Positions 1,230 through 18,646 of a stretch of 24,492 nucleotides of DNA are shown here, piece by piece. This stretch comes from a virus. The DNA lies in the IMG/VR virus record IMGVR_UViG_3300031885_000110, positions 1 to 24,492 of that record; one strand, 5' to 3'. Position numbers and translations under genes: made by a program. The notes under the pieces are model-generated. The model ran no database searches. It was not told the DNA's origin and saw nothing but the letters and a program-made list of their open reading frames with translations. The stretch's first letter is position 1; the number at the start of each line of letters is the position of its first letter.

Positions 1230-1482
1230 ATTCACGCTGCATACTCAGATGGCGGCTCAAGCATACGAGGACATGCTGGCCGATCTCGGGAAGCAACGGG
1301 ACAACCTGTTTGAGAGGTTGGGTAGTCTGAAGATAGAACCGGCAGCAAGCTTCAGCTTTTACATGGTGATAAAAGAGTTAGAGTTCCGGCAAAAAACCCT
1401 GGTCATGAAGACGGCGGTGGAAATCGATCTTATGGTCAAGGCGCAACTTTTTGCCGCTAACAACTTGCTGAAGGGTGAATAG
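1219..1482 (+). CDS. hypothetical helical protein
   Basis: An 87-residue, predicted helical protein without cysteines or membrane segments. The start overlaps the preceding zinc-finger gene by 11 bases and has a modest AAGGTG site, suggesting translational coupling. I do not recognise a family. Confidence 0.65.
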   Translation: MPDKFTLHTQMAAQAYEDMLADLGKQRDNLFERLGSLKIEPAASFSFYMVIKELEFRQKTLVMKTAVEIDLMVKAQLFAANNLLKGE

Positions 1483-1491
1483 GGAGGCGCT

Positions 1492-1959
1492 ATGGACGGC
1501 GAATACGATCTTTACGGAGGCACACCGCCCCATCAGGTGACAAGCGCTACCTCGGAGGCGGCAGCGGAGACAATGACCGAGGAAGCTCTTACCTTGCGGC
1601 TCCGGGTGTATGCCTTCGTTGTGCGGCGAGGGAGCCAAGGAGCTACCGATTGGGAGATCCAGAAGGCGCTGGGCATGGCCGTGAGCACGGAGGTTCCCCG
1701 CAGGCGAGAACTGGTGTTGAAGGGACTCCTAAAGGACGGAGGCTTTTGTCGTCTGACGCGGACCAGGCGGCAGGCAACAGTCTGGGTAAGAGCCGAGGAG
1801 CCAGAGCAGAAAGTTCAGGGACCGCTGGAATCTCTGAAGCAGAGATACGACAAGACGCTCGAGCGGCTGGCCAAATGCGAAGCCGAGCTTGAGGAATGCA
1901 GAGCGATGCTCAGGCGGTATCAGAAAGAGGAGCCGAGGCGGCAGATGTCGCTGTTTTAG
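1492..1959 (+). CDS. winged-helix protein with C-terminal clamp-binding-like motif
   Basis: A 155-residue protein. Residues about 30-98 read as a winged helix-turn-helix: a helix-rich start, then SQGATDWEIQKAL, a recognition-helix-like VSTEVPRRRELVLKGLL, and a basic strand-turn-strand wing (RLTRTRRQATVWV). Residues about 110-147 are a charged coiled coil. The protein ends with Q151-M-S-L-F155, which closely matches the bacterial beta sliding-clamp-binding consensus QL(S/D)LF at an exposed C-terminus. The layout is therefore a DNA-binding head, a stalk and a clamp-docking tail. That reading is inference; the winged-helix assignment is firmer than the clamp assignment. A GGAGGCG site supports the ATG start. 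Confidence 0.72.
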   Translation: MDGEYDLYGGTPPHQVTSATSEAAAETMTEEALTLRLRVYAFVVRRGSQGATDWEIQKALGMAVSTEVPRRRELVLKGLLKDGGFCRLTRTRRQATVWVRAEEPEQKVQGPLESLKQRYDKTLERLAKCEAELEECRAMLRRYQKEEPRRQMSLF

Positions 1960-3057: not shown

Positions 3058-3086
3058 CATAATCTGTGGTGTTACCAATATGGGTG

Positions 3087-3290
3087 ATGTCTATACGCCC
3101 CAAGGTACGCACCGAGCAGATTAATCTTCGGGTCACACCAACGGAGCTGGAAGAGATTCGCTCGGCGGCGGAGCGCAACGATACTTCCGTCACCCAGTAC
3201 ATCATGACCGCAACCCTTGACAAGATCGCCAAGGAGAAAAGGCCGTTTATCGGGACGCTGCGTCGCATGAGAGAGCAAGGGTTGCTATGA
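3087..3290 (+). CDS. ribbon-helix-helix DNA-binding protein
   Basis: A 67-residue protein. After a short basic arm, residues about 7-50 match the ribbon-helix-helix pattern: a strand (EQINLRVTP), helix one (TELEEIRSAAERND) and helix two (SVTQYIMTATLDKIA), as in DUF1778/TacA-type antitoxins and MobC-like regulators. No toxin gene lies beside it, so a transcription regulator is more likely than an antitoxin. The ATG at 3087 is preferred over 3066, which would leave only eight bases after the upstream motif. As first gene behind that motif it may regulate the packaging operon (inference). It overlaps the next gene by four bases (ATGA). Confidence 0.68.
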   Translation: MSIRPKVRTEQINLRVTPTELEEIRSAAERNDTSVTQYIMTATLDKIAKEKRPFIGTLRRMREQGLL

Positions 3291-3928: not shown

Positions 3929-4744
3929 ATGGCGGACAGCGACAAGACGAAGAAATCAAAGGCCGTACCGAAGGCCAGCGGAATCAAGGTGTATTGCGCC
4001 TTTGACGAGGTGGTGGACATCACCAAGATAATCCCCAATCCGCGCAATCCCAACAGACACCCGGAGCGACAGATTGAATTGCTGGCGAAGATCATAAAGA
4101 ACCAGGGGTGGCGAGCGCCCATCACTATCTCCCGCAGGTCCGGGTTTGTTGTGCGTGGAGGAGGCAGGTACGAAGCGGCCAAGTTGCTGCATTCTACCGA
4201 GGTACCGGTAGATTTCCAAGACTATGCGAGCGACGCCGAGGAATGGGCCGATCTCATCGCCGACAACAGGATCGCCGAACTAGCCTACATCGATGAGACT
4301 GTGCTGAAGGACTTGGTGTCGGAGATAGACGTTGGCGACTTCGACATGGACCTGACAGGGTTCGACAACGAATCGCTCGAGAAGCTTATGACTTGGGTCC
4401 CGGACGAGTCCAACCTGCCGGACGATCTGCCTCCGCCCGAAGTGGAAGGCTTAGACACCAGCATGGGCAGGCTCATCCTGGTATACGGCACTCCGGAAGA
4501 GAAACAGCGATGGTTCGATCTGCTCGGTTTGGAAGGGCAGACCAACCAGGTAGTCTTCTCTCTCGCCGACCTTAAAGCCAAGGAAGAGGAACCGACAGAA
4601 CAGAAGGTACTCGCCCCTGACCACGGATTTAACAGCGAGAGAAGTAACATGATCGCCCACAAGGCGGTAAATGCCGAGCAATCAAAAAGCATTACCGAGA
4701 GCCATACTTCAACAGCAAGCCTAACCAACCATCTAGGAGAATGA
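3929..4744 (+). CDS. ParB/Srx-like domain protein
   Basis: A 271-residue protein. Residues about 26-120 form a ParB N-terminal-type domain: DITKIIPNPRNPNRHP (30-45), a helix (QIELLAKIIKNQGW), PITIS, and the Box II region VVRGGGRYEAAKLL (74-87). In phages this domain is usually fused to, or next to, a DNA methyltransferase. None is present here. The C-terminal part (about 170-220) has a proline/acidic linker, then RLILVYGTPEEKQRWFDLLG, a small alpha/beta domain that often trails these proteins. A Lys-rich N-terminus could contact DNA. Likely roles are DNA binding or nicking near packaging, but the biochemical activity is not established. It lies between the terminase genes. Confidence 0.72.
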   Translation: MADSDKTKKSKAVPKASGIKVYCAFDEVVDITKIIPNPRNPNRHPERQIELLAKIIKNQGWRAPITISRRSGFVVRGGGRYEAAKLLHSTEVPVDFQDYASDAEEWADLIADNRIAELAYIDETVLKDLVSEIDVGDFDMDLTGFDNESLEKLMTWVPDESNLPDDLPPPEVEGLDTSMGRLILVYGTPEEKQRWFDLLGLEGQTNQVVFSLADLKAKEEEPTEQKVLAPDHGFNSERSNMIAHKAVNAEQSKSITESHTSTASLTNHLGE

Positions 4745-5066: not shown

Positions 5067-5603
5067 ATGCTTTCGGATCTGGTGGGCTTCGATTACTTGG
5101 AGATGTATAGGCGATACAGCGTAGGATCGGGATACCTCCGGCTCAACCGGAATATCAAGCGCAAGTTCGTGGATGAAATGGAGGACGCAGCCAGGCGCAG
5201 CAACATGAGATTCTACGTGAGCGATGCGCACTTCAAGGAACGCTGCGACAACGGTTCCTGCTGCGGTTTGAGCGAAGATTGGAACTACAGCCGGGGACAG
5301 TACTGCGAAGCGCTCGTCCTTTGCAAAAAGAATGGCCGGGTGACATGGGGCGAGATCGGCCCGGAGATGGTCAAATCCGGGTTCGACAAGTTTAGATGGG
5401 GCAGTGCGGAGAACTACAACCAAGGAACCAGCGGAGCCAGAGCGAAATTTCTGTTTCACACAATGATGGATTTCCTGCGCTGGCACTGGAACAACCCCAA
5501 ATCGGCCAAGTCGCCTTATGTTATGTTCGAGGGCATCATGAAGCCGGTAGACAAAGACGAAAACGGTGATCTGATTTACGAATACGACGCGAGCAGGGAA
5601 TAA
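5067..5603 (+). CDS. protein resembling the C-terminal domain of phage radical-SAM-like proteins
   Basis: A 178-residue protein with the signature FYVSDAHFKERCDNGSCCG (residues about 49-67), then WNYSRGQYCEAL. From memory, this cysteine-rich segment resembles the C-terminal part of radical SAM proteins encoded near phage terminases. The radical SAM core itself (CxxxCxxC binding a 4Fe-4S cluster) is absent, and the frame is closed by a stop at 5046-5048, so no N-terminal extension exists. Either this is a stand-alone domain or the remnant of a truncated gene. The ribosome site of the 5067 ATG is weak. It overlaps the large terminase by one base. Confidence 0.55.
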   Translation: MLSDLVGFDYLEMYRRYSVGSGYLRLNRNIKRKFVDEMEDAARRSNMRFYVSDAHFKERCDNGSCCGLSEDWNYSRGQYCEALVLCKKNGRVTWGEIGPEMVKSGFDKFRWGSAENYNQGTSGARAKFLFHTMMDFLRWHWNNPKSAKSPYVMFEGIMKPVDKDENGDLIYEYDASRE

Positions 5604-7219
5604 TGTTGGCGGAAGCGATACAAATGGAATCGTTGGGCCGGAGCAAGGCGGGAGCGCTTGATGCGCGATTCCGGGAACCGATCATCCATTTGCCGCGTGT
5701 CAATCGGGACGCCTACGTGGAGACATATTCCAGAAAGCAACTCATCAAACGAGCCGAGGCAATGCGCTCAAGACAGTTGGTTCGGGCCAGAGAATCCGCG
5801 TCTGCTTTCATGGAGTACTGCTTCGTCGATGAATCGACCGGTATGCCGTACAAACAGCAATGGTTCCACGACGAATGGCACGAGGCATGGGACAAGCACC
5901 AGAGGGTGATGGTGATAGCGCCTCGCGACCACGCCAAGACTAGCAACGTAGTCGGCAGGGTGATTTGGGAACTGGGACGGAACCCGAACCTGCGGACGAA
6001 GATAGTTTGCGCCAGCGACGGCAAAGCCAAAGAACGCTTGTTCGAAATCGACCAGCACATCAGCGGCAACGACCGAGTGCGTGAGGTGTTTCCTCATTTG
6101 GAACCGGAGCCGGATTCCCCGTGGAATGCTCATCATCTCGTGCTCAGGCGGACGGCCAGGCACAGGGACTCATCGGTGGAAGCGCTTGGTATTACCTCAA
6201 CGGTAACAGGCGGACGCGCCGACCTGCTTGTGGCCGACGACGTAGTGGATCGGCGCAACGCGCTGTCCTTTCCGGCTCTGCGCGAACAGATCAAGCAAGC
6301 GTGGAAGTCCGACTGGACGAACCTGTTGGAGCCGGAGTCGCGAGTTTGGTACATCTGCACACTCTGGTCGCCATCTGATTTGTCGCATGAGTTGATGGAG
6401 AATCGCGCCTACAAGGTTTTCCGGTACGACATAGACGACTCCTTTGGATCTATCTGGCCGGGGAAGTGGAGCGAAGCATCTCTGCGCACACGGTACGAAG
6501 ATATTGGATCCATCGAGTTTAACCGTGCCTTCCGCAACCAGGCCATAGATACTGAGTCGGCGGCGATACAACCGGGTTGGTTCCGCTTCGCCAATCTGCG
6601 TAACGATGAACGTTTCAACAAGATTGTCGAAAGCGACCGAGCGGTATTCATTACCAGTTACGATCCGGCTGGCACTCCGACCGGAAATAAGGACCAGGAT
6701 TACACAGGGGTTTGCATCGGAGCGATAGACAGGGAGCTGGGGAATCTGTACATCGTAGACGCCTGGCATAAACGCATGACCGTAAAGGCTACAGCCGAAG
6801 CGATATTCCAAGAGGCAAACACCTACGAACCGTGGCAGATACTGATCGAAAAAGCCGGACTGTCTACGGTGGACGAATGGGTGGCCAATGAGTATCCGCT
6901 ACTCGTACCGATGGTGAAGGTGACAAAACCGAGGATGTCGAAGTACCAACGCCTTATGGGAGCGACACCATTGTTGGAGAAGGGCAAGGTGATATTTTCA
7001 GAACACCTCAATCCAAACGGGGAATTGTTTTCTGGCGGCAGAGGTTCGCTTGTGGACGAATTGACCGAGTTCCCGTTTGGGAAACACGATGACATGGTAG
7101 ACGCATTTTCGCAACTTGCAGCGGAGGCGCGAGCACACTTCCTTGACGTAGACGCAGATGGAGGCGAAAATATACCTGAGATCCGAATTGGCGAGGAGGA
7201 CGATGGTTATGCGTTCTAA
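5603..7219 (+). CDS. terL: terminase large subunit (packaging ATPase and nuclease)
   Basis: A 538-residue protein with both terminase domains. ATPase: deviant Walker A APRDHAKTS (residues 106-114, K112), Walker B LLVADD (208-213, D212/D213), and coupling motif CTLWSPSDL. RNase H-fold nuclease: first acidic residue in SYDPAGT (D354), then DYTGV, and a C-terminal HDDMVDA (495-501) supplying the last metal ligands. The length is typical. It powers DNA translocation through the portal and cuts concatemers. The ATG at 5603 overlaps the previous stop and has CAGGGA upstream. All expected catalytic residues are present. Confidence 0.93.
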   Translation: MLAEAIQMESLGRSKAGALDARFREPIIHLPRVNRDAYVETYSRKQLIKRAEAMRSRQLVRARESASAFMEYCFVDESTGMPYKQQWFHDEWHEAWDKHQRVMVIAPRDHAKTSNVVGRVIWELGRNPNLRTKIVCASDGKAKERLFEIDQHISGNDRVREVFPHLEPEPDSPWNAHHLVLRRTARHRDSSVEALGITSTVTGGRADLLVADDVVDRRNALSFPALREQIKQAWKSDWTNLLEPESRVWYICTLWSPSDLSHELMENRAYKVFRYDIDDSFGSIWPGKWSEASLRTRYEDIGSIEFNRAFRNQAIDTESAAIQPGWFRFANLRNDERFNKIVESDRAVFITSYDPAGTPTGNKDQDYTGVCIGAIDRELGNLYIVDAWHKRMTVKATAEAIFQEANTYEPWQILIEKAGLSTVDEWVANEYPLLVPMVKVTKPRMSKYQRLMGATPLLEKGKVIFSEHLNPNGELFSGGRGSLVDELTEFPFGKHDDMVDAFSQLAAEARAHFLDVDADGGENIPEIRIGEEDDGYAF

Positions 7220-7826
7220 ATCACCTCGGCTGATCGATACTGCGACAGGCTCTATATTCCAGCGCTGGGATTTGGGAGATGCGAAAATGATGACAGAAAT
7301 AAAACAGAGTCCATATGAGCAGGGCCAAGGTGCGGCGTTTGTCACCTTGGTTGAAGGCATCGAGGCACACGTAGTTGACGAAGCCTGGCAGTTAGTTGCG
7401 GGATCTCTGATATTGCTTCCGGGTGGTAGCGAGCTGGACAGCGATGATGCCGAGTTGGAAAAGATACGGAAGGACATCGGAGAATGCGACGAGGGTTGGA
7501 CCGATGCCGCAAATCGACGACCTGATTTATTTGGCATCAATACGAAGACGGATGATGACGAGGAGCGATTGTCTCCTATGATGCCGATGTTTCTGAACGA
7601 CGCCGACCTGCCTCCGGTTCAAGTGCTGGTCCGGTTCGATGATTTGAAACGATGCCAGAAAATTGGAGTCGGAGATGGTCCGCACGCGCGAGGCACAGCG
7701 GACGGCAGAGACAAGACGACGATATGTACGCATCCTGCGCAGGAGTTGATGATGAGAAAGTGTCGAGGTTGTCTCCGGAGAATGTGGATGAAAGTAGCGA
7801 TAGCAAAGGGACTCATCAATGGATAA
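7209..7826 (+). CDS. hypothetical protein with C-terminal CxH/CxxC site
   Basis: A 205-residue protein of unknown family. The ATG at 7209 was chosen over in-frame ATGs at 7158 and 7203 because AGGAGG (7194-7199) lies nine bases before it. The middle is acidic. The C-terminus carries C173-T-H175 and C185-R-G-C188, a likely small zinc site, followed by a basic helix. It overlaps the large terminase by 11 bases and the next gene by 8, so it belongs to the same operon. No known terminase-portal intervening family is evident. Confidence 0.62.
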   Translation: MRSKSPRLIDTATGSIFQRWDLGDAKMMTEIKQSPYEQGQGAAFVTLVEGIEAHVVDEAWQLVAGSLILLPGGSELDSDDAELEKIRKDIGECDEGWTDAANRRPDLFGINTKTDDDEERLSPMMPMFLNDADLPPVQVLVRFDDLKRCQKIGVGDGPHARGTADGRDKTTICTHPAQELMMRKCRGCLRRMWMKVAIAKGLING

Positions 7827-8365: not shown

Positions 8366-8677
8366 ATGTCGTTCCCAGAATTGCGTATGATGGAGTTCCC
8401 GGCAGTGGTAGCAGGAAATCTGCAAACCGGAACAGGTCCGATATTCAACGCTCATCAAGAGAGCGAAAAAGGTTACAGCTTCCAGCGCGGAGCCGGAGCG
8501 GGTTACACAGCGGCATTGGAGGGCAGCGTGTCCGGCGACCTCTGGACTTCCGTTGTCGCGCTGGCCGCATCTGGTCAGGGAAGTATCTCGGAGCAGTACA
8601 ACTATCTCCGCATCAACTGTTCCGTAGCCGGAGCCTATGACGGCGACGTGCTGAAAATTGCTGGCAAGGTGCTGTAA
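8366..8677 (+). CDS. small beta-rich structural protein candidate
   Basis: A 103-residue protein with a strong AAGGAGG site. The second half (SGDLWTSVVALAASG, then SEQYNYLRINCSVAG, ending in a short valine-rich strand) has the alternating pattern of a small beta-sandwich seen in phage head or tail accessory proteins, where a strand-loop-RxN-strand repeat is common. It is immediately upstream of the portal gene and overlaps it by one base. Its exact place in the virion is not known. Confidence 0.6.
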   Translation: MSFPELRMMEFPAVVAGNLQTGTGPIFNAHQESEKGYSFQRGAGAGYTAALEGSVSGDLWTSVVALAASGQGSISEQYNYLRINCSVAGAYDGDVLKIAGKVL

Positions 8678-10704
8678 TGACTCGACACCGCAAGCAGGGA
8701 ATGACTGACGGAAGAACTCCTTTAGTCAAAGTGAACCCGGTAGAACCTTGGCCGGAGCCGCCTGCCGTGGACAAGCCGTACAGCGGCAAGAGGCGGAAGA
8801 AGGACGAGAGCAACAGAGTCGACATTCGCAAAGCTCTGGCCATGGCCTCAATAATGACAGGCCGGGAAATCAGCGAGTCGGCTGCGATTACCTCTCTGAA
8901 CAAGAGACGCGACGCTTATGGCAACGCAGGAGCCGTGGAGCCTCCGTATGACCCGGAATCGCTGCTGAACTATATCGAGTTGACTCCGCATGTTCTTCCC
9001 AACATCGCTTCGTACCAGACCAACATAGAAGGCTACGGATACCAGGCTGTACCGGTTGTGCCGTGGCTCGACGATCTGGACAGCAAAGAGGCCAGGGACG
9101 CAATCCGCAGTGCGCTCCAAATCGAGCAATGGATTGACGAGGAAGAAGCAGCGTTGGATGCCACGACGAAGAAGCAAGACGAAGAGCCGACGTTGCCTCC
9201 AGAGGGAGAGGACCCGAACCCTGAAACCGAACCGGGCAGTGCGCCGGAGGAGTCAGGGATAGATGGAGAGATCGGCGAGGAAGATGTCGATACCGCCATC
9301 GCCGAATTGAGAATACAACTCCGCCGAGACAAGTACCTGTTCGATTCGTTTTTTGCCAACTGCTGCTCGACCATGTCGTTTACCAAGTTGCGCAGCGTGA
9401 CTCGGTACGACATCGAGGCGCACGGCTGGGGAGCTTGGGAGATGTTAGTTGACGGTTTTGGCCGGTTGAAACGTCTCAACTACATCCCTGGCTACACGGT
9501 GCGACCGCTGAAGGACGAAGGCGAGTTGGTGAAGACCACAGAACCGGACCCGGTGACTCCTTTGTCGAGCGGACGTGAGGTTGTGGTCCATCGCAGGTTC
9601 CGCGTCTTTGTGCAGATCGTCGGCGACCAGAAGGTGTATTTCAAATCGCCAGGAGATCCGCGTGTGGTATCGCGCACCACGGGCAAGGTATATGAGTCGC
9701 TGGATAAGATGCGTGCCGAAAAGGACAAAGGCGGGGACGGCAAGAATGCGCAGCCTGCAAACGAACTAATCTACTTCGCACTTCACGATCCCAGGACTCC
9801 GTGTCCGCCACCGCGCTGGATCGGAAACCTGCTCGCCGTGCTCGGAGTGCGCGAGGCTGACGAAACCAACTATCACTATCTGGACTCCTCGGCGATTCCT
9901 CCCGGTATGTTGTTCATTTCAGGCGGCAGGATAAACCGAGATATGAAGGACCGGCTCGAACAGAGGTTGACGCAGGAGTTCGCGGGTTCCGACAACCGGC
10001 ACAAGATCCTGGTGGTGGAGGCACAACCGACAAAGTTGAAAGGCGAAGAGAAGACGATGCTGCCGTCGATCCATTTCGAGTCGCTTCGGGACGCGCAGCA
10101 GACAGATGCAACCTTTGTCAACTACGACACGAGGAGCGCGGATCGAATTGGCGCTTCTTTCCGCCTGCCGCCCATGTTGAGAGGATACACGCCGGACAAC
10201 CTGAACCGGGCCACGGCCATCGCCGCTTTGGATTTCGCAGAGACACAAGTCTATGAGCCGGAACGCGAGGACGAGGATTGGACTATCAACAAGTACATAG
10301 TGCCGCGCATCGGTGTGAAGCTCCACTCGTTCCGGTCCAACACTCCGCCCACGCGCTCGCCGGAAGAAATCAGCCAACTGATACAAGTCGCTGCTCCGCA
10401 TGGAGGCTTGCTGCCGCAAGAGATTCGAAGCTTGCTCAGTGATGCTCTGAACAAGTCGCTGGTGAAGGTCACAGAGGAATGGGCGAACTGGCCCATGCCG
10501 ATGACGCTGGCCGGATTGGGAGGCGGAACAGGCATATCGGTATCGCCCGAAGAGGAAGGAACCAACATGGGAGAGTTGGCAAACCGGATCGACCAGATGC
10601 AGCGCAGGGTAGAAGCGATACTGACCGATGAGTTGAGAAACGCAGGGTTCGACATGCAGGTAGCGCTCCGACCTGCGCCGGAAGGAATAGACAAGGACCA
10701 ATGA
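8677..10704 (+). CDS. portal protein
   Basis: A 675-residue protein, long for a portal. The clip/stem/wing region shows portal features: the DGFGRLKRLNYIPGYTVRP block (about residues 253-273), an ELIYFALHDP segment before the PPPRWIG motif, and the ISGGRINRD-to-helix stem region. Near residue 500 comes the common SADRIGASFRLPPMLRG stretch followed by NLNRATAIAALDFAE. These fit the PBSX/SPP1-like portal superfamily. Twelve copies form the channel through which DNA is packaged. An acidic, Pro/Glu-rich insert (about 165-205) is unusual and probably a surface loop. The start overlaps the preceding gene by one base. Confidence 0.88.
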   Translation: MTRHRKQGMTDGRTPLVKVNPVEPWPEPPAVDKPYSGKRRKKDESNRVDIRKALAMASIMTGREISESAAITSLNKRRDAYGNAGAVEPPYDPESLLNYIELTPHVLPNIASYQTNIEGYGYQAVPVVPWLDDLDSKEARDAIRSALQIEQWIDEEEAALDATTKKQDEEPTLPPEGEDPNPETEPGSAPEESGIDGEIGEEDVDTAIAELRIQLRRDKYLFDSFFANCCSTMSFTKLRSVTRYDIEAHGWGAWEMLVDGFGRLKRLNYIPGYTVRPLKDEGELVKTTEPDPVTPLSSGREVVVHRRFRVFVQIVGDQKVYFKSPGDPRVVSRTTGKVYESLDKMRAEKDKGGDGKNAQPANELIYFALHDPRTPCPPPRWIGNLLAVLGVREADETNYHYLDSSAIPPGMLFISGGRINRDMKDRLEQRLTQEFAGSDNRHKILVVEAQPTKLKGEEKTMLPSIHFESLRDAQQTDATFVNYDTRSADRIGASFRLPPMLRGYTPDNLNRATAIAALDFAETQVYEPEREDEDWTINKYIVPRIGVKLHSFRSNTPPTRSPEEISQLIQVAAPHGGLLPQEIRSLLSDALNKSLVKVTEEWANWPMPMTLAGLGGGTGISVSPEEEGTNMGELANRIDQMQRRVEAILTDELRNAGFDMQVALRPAPEGIDKDQ

Positions 10705-11054
10705 GCGAGACTTGGTACAGCGGTCCTTATCGCGTTCTGCCCGAGATAGACACGCTCGGTAAAAGGCCGCAGATCGGACAAGGCGATATTCTCGCGCACG
10801 CCAGCGGGGCAATCATACTGCGTTGTCCCAAGTGCGGAGCGATGCAATTCGCTCGGGCCAAGATTCTCAACGATCCTCAGACGCCGACCCTGGATAGACC
10901 GATTCAATGCGGCTCGGGACACTGCAAGAGATGCGGGATTTGGTTCAACATCAAAAACGGTAGGGCGGCGGAAACGAAATCGCCTGTGCCGACCGGCAGC
11001 GGCATCCCAGAAAGATTGGCGAGAGCCGGAGTTAAACCGCCTCCCAAGTTGTAA
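10701..11054 (+). CDS. zinc-ribbon protein between portal and MuF genes
   Basis: A 117-residue protein with CPKC (C42/C45) and CGSGHCKRC (C70, C75, C78), a clear zinc-ribbon ligand set. The N-terminus (WYSGPYRVLPEID) is aromatic and the C-terminus is Pro/Lys-rich. It overlaps the portal gene by four bases (ATGA) and the next gene by one. A role in DNA or RNA contact during head assembly is conceivable, but not shown by the sequence. Confidence 0.72.
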   Translation: MSETWYSGPYRVLPEIDTLGKRPQIGQGDILAHASGAIILRCPKCGAMQFARAKILNDPQTPTLDRPIQCGSGHCKRCGIWFNIKNGRAAETKSPVPTGSGIPERLARAGVKPPPKL

Positions 11055-14000
11055 TGCTCGGCGTCTACTCCAAACCTGTTTGCGGTTTCATGTCTCTGAA
11101 TCCGGTTTGCGATTTGGGACACGATGCGGCAGTAGCGTTGTGGCGAGCCGGTATTCGCAAAGGGCAGAGAATAACCAGAGCAAGGGGTCTGGCTCTGCTT
11201 GTGCTGGGCGGAGGGGCATCCTTGCCTATTCAGTTACCCGAAAAGAGCAGACAAGGAGCTAGACGTGTAGCAATTGGTTCTACGGCAAACGGCGAAGTGG
11301 TACTTTTAGAGGCGTCTTACCGAGGTCGTTTCACTGTTTATCGCAGATTAGAACTCCTGAAGGCGATGTCTCCAAGCGAGGCGGATCGAGATGGGGCCTT
11401 GTCGCTCGTGTCGCCTTCCGGGTACTTGATTGAGAAGACGCTTTCGCCTGCCGATCCTGTCGACGCCAAAAAAATCGCGAACAGATTGACCGGTCAATTG
11501 CTCTACGAGGAGCGCAAGGTTTTCGGGCCTAAGCTCGCCGAGTACGTTTCCAAGATGAAAGTCGACTGGCCGAACCTGACCGCAAATCAGATGAACGAGC
11601 AACTGTCGAAAGTCCGAACCGATCTGAAAAAGATGATGGGTGCATCGGCGGACAAGTTGTTCCCGACCTGGAAGACCAAGGTCGAGTCGACCATCAAAAA
11701 TATATTTACAGGAACCAGAAAAACGATCCGCAGCAACTTCCTGCCGAACGTTGGTTTGTCGATGCGGCAGCCGGATCTCGCAGCGGTCAAAGCGATAGGC
11801 GAGCAGCAGGGCTGGTGGATGCGCAACGCTTCGGGGATGCGCTGCGACAGGCTGACCGCGCAGGCCAGGAAGATTGTACAGCAAGGTCTGACAGACGGAT
11901 TGGGCCGAACGGAGATCGCCGCAAACCTGATGGACTCGCTACCGAATGCGTGGCAGGCCATGGGTCAGCGATACTTCAGCTCTGTTGCTTCTGTCGCGGT
12001 GGCGCGTGGCAGATCCTACTCTGAAGTTTCTGGCTACATCGAAGTCGGAATAGAATCGCTGGAGGTACAGGCCGTCCTCGATGAGCGCACCACAGACATT
12101 TGCCGCTGCCTGGACGGAACGATTATCGACACGAATGTCGTGAGCGAGCAGATAGTGGGCGCGATGAACGTGACCACTCCGGAAGACATCCGGGATGCCT
12201 CTCCGTTCTTGAAGGAGGTCACGAATCGAGAGACAGGTTTCAAAGACATCGTCACGTCGAATTCAGGAGACAGAATCGCGGAGGTGGTGCGTAGCGGATT
12301 CGGAAACGTCGACGACCGTGGGCAATTCAACACGTTTGTTTCCGGCAATCAACTCGTCGATCTGAAGATCGGTCCGCCTCCTTATCATTTTGAGTGCCGG
12401 TCCTATACGGTTCCCGTGATGTCCTCGGTACAGGTTCCGCGCAACTTCACACCGCAGGCTGACGAGACTCCTCCTGTGCCGCCACGAGTTGTGCCGGAAG
12501 GCGGAACGCCTCCTCCTGGAGTCGGAGCAAGGCCGCAGGTGATGAATCCGACACCGACGCCAGAAGCGCCAACCCTGATAGGAAATCAGGATATTACGGA
12601 ACGGTATCCATTTTCCAAAGATTTTGCGACGCCTCCGGAGTTGCCAGTCGACCTGTACTATCATCCTAAGCAGTTAAAGGACGGAGCGGTTTATCAACGG
12701 CATTATTTCGATTCGGGAAACGGAGTGATACGGCCTGCGGGTCCATTGGCGACGGTTCCCAAACCGACAGACGCCGAAAATTTTTTGAAAGCGTTGGCTG
12801 ATAATTTGTCCCTTGGCGCAGAGGTGCGCGGAGTGACGATGTATGTCGACTCGCTGGATTTCAAAACGCTACGAGACATTATTTTGGCAGAATCGAAACA
12901 GGCCATCGCAGCGAATCGCGTCTACTCGCTTCGAGGCACGCTGACGGATAGGCAACATTTTCTGAGGTTCAACCCGGCCAAAAAATCTTCGGAGGCGGTC
13001 AAGAGCGCTCTGTCAGAACTGGGCGCATCGGACAGCTTGGGAGCGGCGACCAAAGCGATGGCCAAATTGGAAGATGCCGGATATTTGTTGCAGGCGACAA
13101 AGGCGGAGAAATTAACCAGCGGTATAGTTTCGAGCGAAAAATTGCCTCCGTTGAAAGGACCGGGAATACCAAAGCCGAAACCGATTCCCAAACCGGCTCC
13201 GGGAGCGACGACGATTCCCAAACCCAAACCCGCTGCCGTGGTAGAGCCGACCATGCCCTACGGACAGGCTAGGCAATGGACACCTGCTCGCGATTATACC
13301 GAGCATGGGTTGCTACCTGAAATACCGGTTGAGCAACAGATGGCGAAACGAGTTGAGATGGAAACTGCTAAATTGCGAGATTATTTAGCAGCGAAGGAAA
13401 AGGCATCTCCGGGCGGTCTGTCTTATTCGGGACACGCCGACGCAATTCGAGATTATGTGACTCAGTCAACTGGTGCGGTTGAAAAAATCACCTCAAAAAT
13501 GGTACGTTCGAATATGTCGGTGGAAATTCCGCATGGACGCCAAGCCGCAGAGCATTCAACAATGAACAACGTGCGAAAAGGAACTATGGCCTTGGCACCA
13601 GGTTCAAAAATATCAGATGTTGTTTTAAAAACGGTCCCAGACGAAGAACTTGCCTCGCTGTACAATAAAGCTTTTCAGCATCTGAGTCAGCGCGTTTTGG
13701 ATGCTACTTTAAAGAAGGGATTTCCTAAGGTATTTTATGCGGAAGGTGTTTCGGGTGGTGCTTTTTATAACTCGGGGTATCGAGTAATGGTGCTGCCAGG
13801 CAAAGTCAAAAACGCTGGAGAATTGGAACGGTATTTTCGGCATGAGTTTGGACACTATGTCGATTCGTTAGGCCAGACAAAGCACGCCTCGGCAGCATTC
13901 CGCGACAGGTATAAAACATCAGAAAAGGTGTTTACTTCGTCGAACGGTTACGATTACGTACCGGGGAAGTGGGGCGATGAATATTCAGGTATGGTCGATT

Positions 14001-14149
14001 CAAAATGGAAATACAACACAGAAATTAATTCAACAATATCAGAAAGCATGTCGGAAAATTCGAAGATAAAATTAAATAATATGCACGCGGCAAATCCCGA
14101 TCACGTGGGCTATTTTATTTCTCAGGCGAAAGGAGATTTTATTCCATGA
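11054..14149 (+). CDS. MuF-type head protein with C-terminal metallopeptidase-like region
   Basis: A 1031-residue protein. The MuF/SPP1 gp7-like core lies at about residues 60-455, including DERTTDICRCLDGT (343-356) and the closing PPYHFECRSYTVP (442-454, C448). A proline-rich linker follows, then a middle domain (about 520-690), then a second linker with repeated PKP (about 703-735). The C-terminal region (about 750-1031) carries the zincin signature HEFGH (H930-H934), with a possible third metal ligand in GDEYSG. Typical MuF proteins are 300-500 residues, so the tail is an extra module. It resembles phage MuF polymorphic-toxin fusions and could be injected with DNA. Bases 13981-14100 are about one-third G+C, far lower than the capsid gene. 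Start ATG overlaps the preceding stop. Confidence 0.85.
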   Translation: MLGVYSKPVCGFMSLNPVCDLGHDAAVALWRAGIRKGQRITRARGLALLVLGGGASLPIQLPEKSRQGARRVAIGSTANGEVVLLEASYRGRFTVYRRLELLKAMSPSEADRDGALSLVSPSGYLIEKTLSPADPVDAKKIANRLTGQLLYEERKVFGPKLAEYVSKMKVDWPNLTANQMNEQLSKVRTDLKKMMGASADKLFPTWKTKVESTIKNIFTGTRKTIRSNFLPNVGLSMRQPDLAAVKAIGEQQGWWMRNASGMRCDRLTAQARKIVQQGLTDGLGRTEIAANLMDSLPNAWQAMGQRYFSSVASVAVARGRSYSEVSGYIEVGIESLEVQAVLDERTTDICRCLDGTIIDTNVVSEQIVGAMNVTTPEDIRDASPFLKEVTNRETGFKDIVTSNSGDRIAEVVRSGFGNVDDRGQFNTFVSGNQLVDLKIGPPPYHFECRSYTVPVMSSVQVPRNFTPQADETPPVPPRVVPEGGTPPPGVGARPQVMNPTPTPEAPTLIGNQDITERYPFSKDFATPPELPVDLYYHPKQLKDGAVYQRHYFDSGNGVIRPAGPLATVPKPTDAENFLKALADNLSLGAEVRGVTMYVDSLDFKTLRDIILAESKQAIAANRVYSLRGTLTDRQHFLRFNPAKKSSEAVKSALSELGASDSLGAATKAMAKLEDAGYLLQATKAEKLTSGIVSSEKLPPLKGPGIPKPKPIPKPAPGATTIPKPKPAAVVEPTMPYGQARQWTPARDYTEHGLLPEIPVEQQMAKRVEMETAKLRDYLAAKEKASPGGLSYSGHADAIRDYVTQSTGAVEKITSKMVRSNMSVEIPHGRQAAEHSTMNNVRKGTMALAPGSKISDVVLKTVPDEELASLYNKAFQHLSQRVLDATLKKGFPKVFYAEGVSGGAFYNSGYRVMVLPGKVKNAGELERYFRHEFGHYVDSLGQTKHASAAFRDRYKTSEKVFTSSNGYDYVPGKWGDEYSGMVDSKWKYNTEINSTISESMSENSKIKLNNMHAANPDHVGYFISQAKGDFIP
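13160..13240 (+). repeat. proline-lysine linker repeat inside the MuF fusion
   Basis: Degenerate repeats of AAACCC/AAGCCG-type codons encode IPKPKPIPKPAPG and IPKPKP, a flexible, extended linker separating the structural part from the C-terminal region. Base composition falls on the 3' side, so this stretch is a reasonable candidate for a module-swap junction. Confidence 0.6.
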
Positions 14150-15894: not shown

Positions 15895-16935
15895 GTGGGT
15901 ATTGGAATCTACGAAACTAGCCAGAAAAACAAGGACGGAATTGCCGTGGCTTTTTTTGGCTGTGATGACGCGCTGCTTTTGAAAGCACTCTATGCGCACG
16001 CCTCTAAGATCGCGGGTCCGGGGCTGGAACAGTACAATCCCAAAGCAGGCGAACGAGTTCGCAAAGTCGGAGAGATCCAAATTGTTGCGGTAGCAGACGA
16101 TGCCCAGTTCTACGTAGTCGCCGCAGACGAAGAGGCGGAGAAGCCAGAAGGCGGCAGGACTCCGTCTGGATCCAACGGGACCTGGGCCGTCCAGTCTTTG
16201 ATTTTCAGCAAAGACATTTTTTCGCTCGCGGAAGCGAAGACATGGATACAGGAGCATTCGGGTTTTGGCGACTACGGATACGATGAAACCGAAACCTCGT
16301 TCCGGTTCCGACAGTATGATCCTGAACACTTTTCCGAGTTCAAAACGATTTCTGTAACAGAAGGCATCAGCGCTGCGTATGGCAAGATCAGCAAAGAGGT
16401 TGAGAGTGAGGAAGAATCCAACAAGGCGCTCGCTCAATCAATCGCTCTTTGGGAGGCGGTACACAACGTCAACAAAGGCATCATGAACTCTGGCCTGAAG
16501 GTGTTGAGCGACACGGCGGTAATACGCAAAGCCGAAGACGGATCAGAGGAGGAGCGCTTTGTCCTGTCGTTGGTACTTGAGCCGAACGATGGCGGCAATG
16601 ACGCTCCTCTCAAGCCGGATACGCAGAAAGATATTTACAGTGAGGAAGAGGTTCGCAAGGCGGCTCATACCTGGATGGAACATCACGGAGCGGTAGATCT
16701 CAATCACTCGTGGAAAAGCTTGGGCAAAGAAAAAGTTCGGACCTTGGAATCCTACCTGGCTCCCGTGACTTTCAAATGTGGAAAGCCTGAAGACGAGAAG
16801 GCGTATGAAGTGGTGAAAGGGACATGGATGCTGGGCTTGCGGATCGTCGATGATGATCTGTGGACCGCTATCAAAGCTGGCGAGATCGGAGCATACAGCA
16901 TCGGAGGAGTCGCTACGAGAGAGCCAGTGGAGTGA
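15895..16935 (+). CDS. XkdF-like putative prohead protease
   Basis: A 346-residue protein starting with GTG, supported by GGAGGTG six bases upstream; no ATG lies nearby. Residues about 96-165 (SKDIFSLAEAKTWIQEH, SFRFRQYDPEHF) form a domain common in phage prohead proteases. Residues about 245-345 match the XkdF family: AAHTWMEHH, then VDLNHSW with candidate catalytic H271, a VKGTWMLGLRI segment, and GEIGAYSIGGVA with candidate nucleophile S335. It would cleave scaffold and capsid precursors during maturation. The final family residues are intact. It lies upstream of the scaffold candidate and major capsid gene, as expected. Confidence 0.8.
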   Translation: MGIGIYETSQKNKDGIAVAFFGCDDALLLKALYAHASKIAGPGLEQYNPKAGERVRKVGEIQIVAVADDAQFYVVAADEEAEKPEGGRTPSGSNGTWAVQSLIFSKDIFSLAEAKTWIQEHSGFGDYGYDETETSFRFRQYDPEHFSEFKTISVTEGISAAYGKISKEVESEEESNKALAQSIALWEAVHNVNKGIMNSGLKVLSDTAVIRKAEDGSEEERFVLSLVLEPNDGGNDAPLKPDTQKDIYSEEEVRKAAHTWMEHHGAVDLNHSWKSLGKEKVRTLESYLAPVTFKCGKPEDEKAYEVVKGTWMLGLRIVDDDLWTAIKAGEIGAYSIGGVATREPVE

Positions 16936-16944
16936 GGAGGCGAT

Positions 16945-17694
16945 ATGAAACGGAGCAAAAATAGCGCCAAGATCGCAAAGGCAAAAGACGATAAGAAGGG
17001 TGACAAATTGTTCAGGCTCACGGACATAGAGCCGGAATTCGTCAGCCTGGTACAAGCAGGAGCCAATCGTCAGAAGACTTTCATGGTGGTCAAGGAAGAT
17101 GCCGAGCAGGTAGTTCCCAATGCTGCCACCGACAACGATATTTGTGCTGCACTCCCTATCGACCCCAAGGAGTGCATTCAAGGGACGGACGACGCCAATA
17201 AAAATAACGATGGCAATGAGCCTCCAGGCAATGGGAGTCCCGAAAAGGATGCAGTCGATCTCGCATCCTGGCTCGATGAAGCAGGGACCAAAGTAGATGC
17301 GCTTGCGCTTGACCATGCGGTCGCAGCAGCGCTGAACACCCCAGCCGAAGTGCCTGCTGTCGATGTTGGCGAAACCTCCAAAGAGGCGCATGAGATCGAA
17401 GACGCGGCAGCGCCAGCCGCAACAGAGGTCGAGAAAAAGGCAGACGAGGAGCGACTGAGCAAAATGCATCAACTCGAAGACAAGTTGAAAAAAGCAGAGA
17501 GGGAAATTGTTTCTCTCAAAGCGAAGAATGCTCGTCTCTCTAAGGATGTCGGCAAGTCCAGCGTTATTCTCACAGGTGAGGTAACGGCCAAGGGCTTGCA
17601 AAACGAGGAAGACAACGAAAACACAAGTCCGTCACGCGGAGCGTTTCTGTCGGGTGGAGACATCGCGGCAGCGGTCGCAAAGAGTGGCGGCTAA
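16945..17694 (+). CDS. probable scaffold protein
   Basis: A 249-residue protein with a strong GAGGAGG site. Residues about 28-50 (DIEPEFVSLVQAGANRQKTF) match a short motif widely seen at the start of phage prohead protease or head proteins (VSLVxxGAN). The middle is acidic and disordered. Residues about 160-205 form a clear coiled coil (DEERLSKMHQLEDKLKKAE). The C-terminus is Gly/Ser/Ala-rich. Immediate position before the major capsid gene, small size and the coiled coil suggest the internal scaffold removed by the protease. No protease residues are seen, so it is not a second protease. Confidence 0.62.
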   Translation: MKRSKNSAKIAKAKDDKKGDKLFRLTDIEPEFVSLVQAGANRQKTFMVVKEDAEQVVPNAATDNDICAALPIDPKECIQGTDDANKNNDGNEPPGNGSPEKDAVDLASWLDEAGTKVDALALDHAVAAALNTPAEVPAVDVGETSKEAHEIEDAAAPAATEVEKKADEERLSKMHQLEDKLKKAEREIVSLKAKNARLSKDVGKSSVILTGEVTAKGLQNEEDNENTSPSRGAFLSGGDIAAAVAKSGG

Positions 17695-17707
17695 AAAAGG
17701 AAAGAAC

Positions 17708-18646
17708 ATGGCAACTCCGAACAAGTCAATAATGGCGAAAGCCGACATGGAAGTCGCAGACCTGATTGCGGACGGTGGATACCTCGCAGCGGAACAGGCG
17801 GAGCAGTTCGTCGTCGACGTGGTCAAGGAAAGCGTCCTGCTGCAACTCGTGACGGTGATGGGCCTGAAATCCCACACCAAGTTGATCGACAAGGTCGGCA
17901 TCGAAGGCCGAGTGCTCCGACCCGGAACCAGCGGTCACGCTCTTGCGGCAGCGGACAGAACGAAACCGACGACCGACCAGGTCACGCTCCATACGCACCT
18001 GATGAAAGGCGAGATCCGCCTGAACGACGAAACGCTGGAAGACAACATCGAGAACGGCAACTTCAAGACCACGGTAATGCAGATGATGGCCGAGCACGTC
18101 GCTCTGGATATGGACGACCTGCTCGCCAACGGCGACCTCACGTCGACCGATCCGCTGCTCGCATTGCTGGACGGCATGATCGTTTCAGCAGTGTCGCATC
18201 CCGTCAACGGAGGCGTGGCGTCTCTGGTAAAATCGATGCTGAAAGACGCCATCAAGGCGATGCCGAGCCAGTACAACCGGACCAAGCGCAACCAGCGTTT
18301 CCTCACCAGCGAAGACGCGGCAATCGACTACCACGACTACCTGGCCGACCGTGTCACGGGACTCGGCGACTCGAAGGTTCAGGACGATTCTCCGGATACC
18401 TACGGCAACAGGGCCATCCTGCCGGTGCCGGTATTCCCGGACGATCTCGGTGTCGGTCACAACTGTACCGCAGTGCTCCTGCTCGATCCGAAGATCGCAT
18501 GCTGGGGCATCTGGAGGAACGTGCGCGTCGAAACAGACCGAGACATCACCACCGGAGAGTGGATCATGGTGACCTCGCTGAGAGCCGGATTCGTGTACAG
18601 CGAGGAAGACGCGGTCGTGAAGGTGTACGGGGTAAAGACGCAGTAA
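17708..18646 (+). CDS. major capsid protein, HK97 fold
   Basis: A 312-residue protein. The ATG at 17708 was chosen over 17654 because AAAGGAAAG precedes it and the longer frame overlaps the previous gene. The layout fits HK97-type capsid proteins: an N-terminal helical segment, then SHTKLIDKVGIEGRVL, KGEIRLNDETLEDNIENG (E-loop to P-domain spine), a long helical P-domain (about 115-180), and a C-terminal A-domain ending with ITTGEWIMVTSLRAGFVY. There is no evident long N-terminal delta domain, so a separate scaffold is expected and is found upstream. Codon choice is GC-richer than in the accessory genes. Confidence 0.85.
   Translation: MATPNKSIMAKADMEVADLIADGGYLAAEQAEQFVVDVVKESVLLQLVTVMGLKSHTKLIDKVGIEGRVLRPGTSGHALAAADRTKPTTDQVTLHTHLMKGEIRLNDETLEDNIENGNFKTTVMQMMAEHVALDMDDLLANGDLTSTDPLLALLDGMIVSAVSHPVNGGVASLVKSMLKDAIKAMPSQYNRTKRNQRFLTSEDAAIDYHDYLADRVTGLGDSKVQDDSPDTYGNRAILPVPVFPDDLGVGHNCTAVLLLDPKIACWGIWRNVRVETDRDITTGEWIMVTSLRAGFVYSEEDAVVKVYGVKTQ

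Follow-up and report, generated by a model that had tools for sequence, protein, structure and literature searches.

The question raised by the gene at positions 1492..1959 (+ strand) of the window, that is, the whole 24,492-base stretch of DNA under study, is whether the last five residues of its product, QMSLF, serve to attach a phage protein to the sliding clamp (DnaN) of its host. The window is a linear fragment from a single IMG/VR virus record. The gene, an ATG open reading frame (ORF) preceded by a ribosome-binding-like GGGAGG at 1482..1487 (+, read from the sequence), encodes a predicted winged-helix protein of 155 residues that belongs to the phage family PHROG 1123. The C-terminus reads ...EEPRRQMSLF directly before the stop codon, and the putative clamp-binding peptide corresponds to residues 151-155 (1942..1956, +). 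This ending had been pointed out in the original prediction, and it is confirmed by the ORF call and its translation. On the basis of comparisons within the family, QMSLF is probably a real clamp motif, and the favored reading, to which we assign a probability of about 0.58, is that the protein is a DNA-binding adaptor through which phage DNA transactions would be tethered to the clamp of the host.

Clamp motifs are known in disordered N-termini, as in Hda, or in C-terminal tails, as in Pol II and Pol IV; position 2 is described as tolerant, binding is strengthened by the motif glutamine but does not require it, and the carboxylate of a free C-terminus may contribute (PMC11139829). A revised consensus (PMC13254535) places an aliphatic residue (L/I/V/A) at position 2. 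Of the residues typical of beta-clamp ligands, QMSLF has the Q at the first position, L/M at the fourth and F/L at the fifth.

The window protein matches phrog_1123 with E=1.2e-9 over residues 14-106. PHROGs lists this family without a function, and members from named phages are annotated as "LamD-like," "DNA binding protein" or "hypothetical." With Pfam nothing scored over the cut-off, the sub-threshold matches being mostly to coiled coils. Searches with the full-length protein returned none of 10 candidate stretches in viral_contigs and a single weak match (E=0.3) in the phages collection. A terminase search led to 24 loci, of which 23 records were scanned (all but L025), and a full-length relative was found in only one of these, G019. 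This nearest full-length relative (L028) is of similar length, shows 43% identity, ends in QTSFRF and is encoded after a RecT gene. The alignment of this pair, followed by domain-only alignments, was used to find the family in viral_contigs and genome_contigs. The peptide patterns for these searches were taken from the regions of ATDxEIQ, YGGxPPHQ and xMNPSTQ or their equivalents, and the tail was never used. The resulting domain-built profile, applied at E<=1e-5, yielded 160 ORFs, 113 of them distinct and all kept, which fell into 54 clusters at 60% core identity. The winged-helix core shared by the 113 relatives spans residues 20-98 of the window protein (TS...VW; 1549..1785, +), as delineated by the profile alignment and the AlphaFold2 model. 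The relatives include five from named phages; others come from genomes in the phyla to which three named metagenome-assembled genomes belong (Planctomycetota, Myxococcota and Thermodesulfobacteriota). In the phages collection, good members were encountered only in mycobacteriophage, Mesorhizobium, Erythrobacter and Pelagibacter phages. The member from Erythrobacter phage ZS04 (L111, 2953-3360) has MPELFDP at the N-terminus and, on the C-terminal side, an extension that looks helical and ends in GIAF, an architecture that resembles that of the window protein.

Two patterns were counted in the segments before the domain (<=45 residues) and after it, namely a pentapeptide, Q..[LM]F, and a hexapeptide, Q..[LMF].[FLY]. 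With these patterns, both of which follow the known clamp consensus and were set after part of the family had already been seen, the pentapeptide was found in 9 of the 54 cluster representatives (shuffle mean 0.29), the hexapeptide in 7 (1.19) and one or the other in 16 (1.45). An exact C-terminal Q..[LM]F occurs in 4 of the 54, the window protein among them, as compared to a shuffle mean of 0.0055. None of these four counts was reached in 2000 shuffles. A second comparison was provided by 1176 neighboring ORFs from the same loci, mechanically called and thus including some that are not real genes: none ends exactly in Q..[LM]F, 15 contain the pentapeptide in either 45-residue end, and 60 contain either motif (Fisher p for family versus neighbors of 3e-6, 2e-7 and 3e-8, respectively). 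At the level of individual members, the pentapeptide is present in 30/113, either motif in 38/113 and the exact C-terminal pentapeptide in 21/113.

The peptides themselves are varied. Those at the C-terminal end are QMSLF (the window protein), QRTLF, QVGLF, QIGLF, QTGLF and QKELF, with QPDMF in a C-terminal tail, and those at the N-terminal end are QVDMF, QTNMF, QPGLF, QPMLF, QATLF and QPTLF. Among 14 distinct cluster/peptide cases, position 3, which the pattern leaves free, is occupied by S/T/G/D/N/E in 13 (p 8e-6, for a residue class picked after the peptides had been seen), a small or polar residue of the kind that many clamp ligands have there. Half of the peptides have P or T at position 2, where the revised consensus calls for an aliphatic residue. 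One subfamily of 19 distinct members retains the terminal residues (Q in 18/19, and G, L and F each in 19/19), and the five residues that precede them vary. Within the C-terminal group the stop codon often shares bases with the ATG or the ribosome site of the gene that follows. The codons for the L and F vary synonymously across that group, as do the Q codons over the whole of it, and for this reason overlap with the next gene leaves the residues unexplained. A cause for the terminal LF at the level of the DNA, whether the start or the ribosome site of the following gene, was rejected on these grounds.

For a hold-out, the definitions and a prediction (the motif in >=15% of new clusters) were fixed before two further domain-only scans. 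These gave 95 distinct family ORFs; 41 with >=60% identity to known members were set aside, and the remaining 54 formed 12 clusters. The pentapeptide was observed in 3 of the 12 representatives (0.085 in shuffles) and [LM]F in the N-terminal segment in 8 (1.3 in shuffles), neither count ever being reached in 2000 shuffles. Either motif was present in 5 of the 12. The hexapeptide result was weak, at 2 of 12, with 90 of 2000 shuffles reaching that number. A chance match was ruled out by the shuffles, the neighboring ORFs and the hold-out taken together.

Under relaxed and partly post hoc definitions, the motif lies on the N-terminal side in 24 of the 54 representatives, on the C-terminal side in 10 and on both sides in none (Fisher p 0.0013). 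The domain tree is poorly resolved, 35 of its 56 inner branches being left open for low support, and the N and C labels are scattered over it. It requires 16 label changes, no fewer than with shuffled labels, and the starred branches force at least three changes each for N and for C. Note that residues 4-8 of the window protein, EYDLY (1501..1515, +), were found by sequence comparison to lie near the site of the N-terminal clamp-like motif in relatives (QFDLL in L036, QPGLF in L170) and are possibly a degenerate version of it.

Several observations weigh against the clamp reading. Even under the relaxed definitions, 20 of the 54 representatives have no motif, and it is missing from two close relatives, L035 and L031, the latter sharing 57% identity with the window protein across residues 6-101. 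The nearest full-length relative, with its QTSFRF ending, has F in fourth place where the pattern has L/M, and K replaces Q in three freshwater loci (L053, L055 and L056). The revised consensus with its aliphatic position 2 fits only 2/54 representatives and excludes QMSLF itself since M is unlisted. None of the 12 hold-out representatives ends exactly in the pentapeptide, the QSRMF of L191 being one residue short of the end. The start codons of the relatives are guesses, such that some N-terminal matches may fall outside the real protein, and no replication genes are visible in the window fragment. The original prediction, which proposed clamp binding and looked to the last five residues of homologues for conservation, is thus upheld in part: the terminal motif is strongly enriched in the family and the hold-out, its third position is nearly always small or polar and it may occupy either terminus, but its absence from 20 of the 54 representatives goes part of the way toward the outcome that the prediction named as refuting, namely homologues of like fold that lack the terminal motif. 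Taken together, these comparisons support clamp binding as a family-wide, if patchily conserved, property.

A model of the window protein was calculated with AlphaFold2 from an alignment of 37 sequences, and all 37 of the aligned sequences, the window protein included, match PHROG 1123. The mean predicted local distance difference test (pLDDT) is 85.1 and the predicted template modeling score 0.55. The model contains helices at residues 19-49, 53-59 and 71-76 and strands at 80-88 and 94-100, which together form a winged helix, that is, a helix-turn-helix followed by a two-stranded wing. Much of this domain is modeled with a pLDDT >90. Following the winged helix, which extends to residue 100, there is a single long helix, residues 109-152 (1816..1947, +), and then a low-confidence tail. 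The last block of the model has a pLDDT of 59; residues 153-155 lie beyond the helix, and Gln 151 and Met 152 form its end. As modeled, QMSLF would be accessible, as expected of a motif in a disordered segment or tail. The long helix is probably a coiled coil through which the protein may dimerize, and the winged helix would be expected to bind DNA. The model agrees with the order of winged helix, coiled coil and terminal peptide originally proposed. A Foldseek search of the PDB gave no matches at E<=0.001. The best of the weak matches (E about 0.02-0.1) were mostly to winged-helix regulators of the MarR and PadR types and to the winged helices of ScpB and TFIIIC.

The family genes sit among phage replication and recombination genes. 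Pfam searches with 79 neighboring proteins, picked from 266 called neighbors as the longer ones on the + strand, a choice that favors recognizable enzymes, identified RecT (3/79), DnaB (3/79) and DNA polymerase A (2/79) in addition to Rad52, SSB, YqaJ and methylases. With PHROGs, the replication initiation, primase/helicase, RecE and Sak4 families were recognized. In named phages the family gene adjoins Cas4 and ERF genes, ligase and helicase genes, or HNH and DnaD genes. Similar peptides were also seen in a few of the neighboring proteins. In locus L150, where the family protein ends in QKELF, the downstream gene (5323-6285) encodes a DNA methylase (PF01555) ending in ...SEQMSLFAEVV, with a QMSLF identical to that of the window protein, and the helicase encoded by the next gene (6249-7745) has EQERLF near its C-terminal end. 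The same gene pair is found in L158 with QFALF and QERLF. In L179 the gene directly after the family gene (5237-5725), which has no Pfam match, encodes QQSLF near the C-terminus of its product.

From these patterns of sequence and gene order we infer clamp binding and a recruiting role. PHROG 1123 would represent a small phage winged-helix adaptor whose flexible tail bears a short linear motif for clamp binding. In the window protein, QMSLF at the extreme C-terminus would follow a helical and probably dimerizing stalk; the free terminus would dock into the pocket in which the beta clamp of the host receives its ligands, with the winged helix holding DNA. The phage protein would thereby be concentrated at clamps remaining on newly replicated DNA, and the adaptor could bring to the host replisome such replication and recombination functions as the RecT/Erf annealing proteins, DnaB-type helicases and initiators encoded beside its relatives. 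Tethering to host forks and blocking of clamp access had both been suggested initially; sequence cannot separate them, and the replication and recombination neighbors of the relatives fit tethering better.

If the protein instead acted as a host-takeover inhibitor, it would fill the clamp pocket and keep host polymerases off. Twort gp168 and G1 gp240 are listed as DnaN binders with host replication shutoff (PMC3594737), and a dimer with a strong motif at the C-terminus could compete for the pocket. A plain inhibitor, however, needs neither a winged helix nor DNA-module neighbors, and strong competition would be expected to select against a motif as varied and often degenerate as that of the family. 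Such a role is judged to be quite improbable. Less probable still is a clamp-coupled transcription factor, the winged helix of which would sit on phage promoters while the tail linked it to host clamps on replicating phage DNA, in the manner of T4 gp33/gp55 with gp45. The counterpart in gp33 is described as essential for activation (PMC7892883), the window gene ends ~3.6 kb upstream of the terminase gene (PF17289), and the nearest folds, albeit without significance, are MarR/PadR-like regulators. The relatives, on the other hand, have as neighbors not late genes but genes for replication and recombination, and contact with RNA polymerase is suggested by no result of this analysis.

Somewhat more weight, although it too is unlikely, can be given to the notion that the terminal peptide is unrelated to the clamp, being instead some other short motif or a portion of the fold. 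What the peptides have in common is limited to Q, L/M and F; at position 2 they often have proline or a polar residue, in contrast to the revised clamp consensus; and in the short members the peptide follows closely upon the last wing strand. Against this stand the retention of the motif after tails of very different length, its position at the opposite terminus in relatives and the resemblance of its free positions to those of clamp peptides. The adaptor reading can also be extended, and here we are tentative, with the odds leaning against it: PHROG 1123 may be a widespread family that plugs phage DNA onto the host clamp, its motif repeatedly lost, regained and moved between ends. In some phages the whole module might be clamp-using, as would be the case for the QMSLF methyltransferase and QERLF helicase of L150, with host clamps as the platform on which recombination, methylation and possibly transcription coupled to replication would be assembled.

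The remaining gene order of the window is one of packaging and structural functions. The large terminase (5603-7219, PF17289), located 3' of the winged-helix gene, is followed by a portal (8677-10704) and a MuF-like protein (11054-14149), both matched under the Pfam cut-off, an S78-type protease (15895-16935) and a capsid protein (17654-18646). Directly after the winged-helix gene lies a small ORF (1970-2125) that matches DUF1660, a prophage protein, and the ribosome site ahead of its start overlaps the stop codon that follows QMSLF. A 99-base Rfam tRNA match (40.5 bits) at 784-882 has no ARAGORN call. The ORF at 3066-3290 (74 residues) matches NikA-like/TacA1-like models, and that at 3929-4744 encodes a protein that has a ParB-like N-terminal domain and is matched as well by the N-terminal portion of a phage family of DNA methyltransferases.

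The adaptor reading provides a testable function for a phage family listed without one. The implication is that phages dependent on the replisome of their host equip small DNA-binding proteins with a tag for its clamp, in the way that transposases carry one. Should this prove true, a single binding assay with a ten-residue peptide would open PHROG 1123, and further phage clamp clients could be sought by means of the motif. Among the titles and abstracts searched, with most subscription journals not covered, none connected the clamp with PHROG 1123 or with a winged helix from a phage.

With respect to known systems, Hda is an AAA+ protein related to DnaA, not a winged-helix protein. Its clamp motif lies in a disordered N-terminus (PMC11139829), like the N-terminal version in many relatives of the window protein, for example the QLGFGF of L032. 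Twort gp168 and G1 gp240 of staphylococcal phages are phage proteins that act on the host clamp (PMC3594737), as is proposed for PHROG 1123; they are reported as shutoff proteins. T4 gp33 and gp55 differ in that they bind the phage's own trimeric gp45 together with RNA polymerase, and the parallel drawn here is one of mechanism. The clamp-binding transposases, IS1634 and others, are DNA-binding proteins of mobile elements in which a short motif for binding beta, QLxLF, is found mostly at the C-terminal end. They retain the Q and the hydrophobic positions in a varied context, with the motif at different places in homologues (PMC4549789), which resembles the placement in PHROG 1123. Unlike them, the window protein has no transposase domain, consisting only of a winged helix and a helical stalk, and its family belongs to phage replication and recombination modules.
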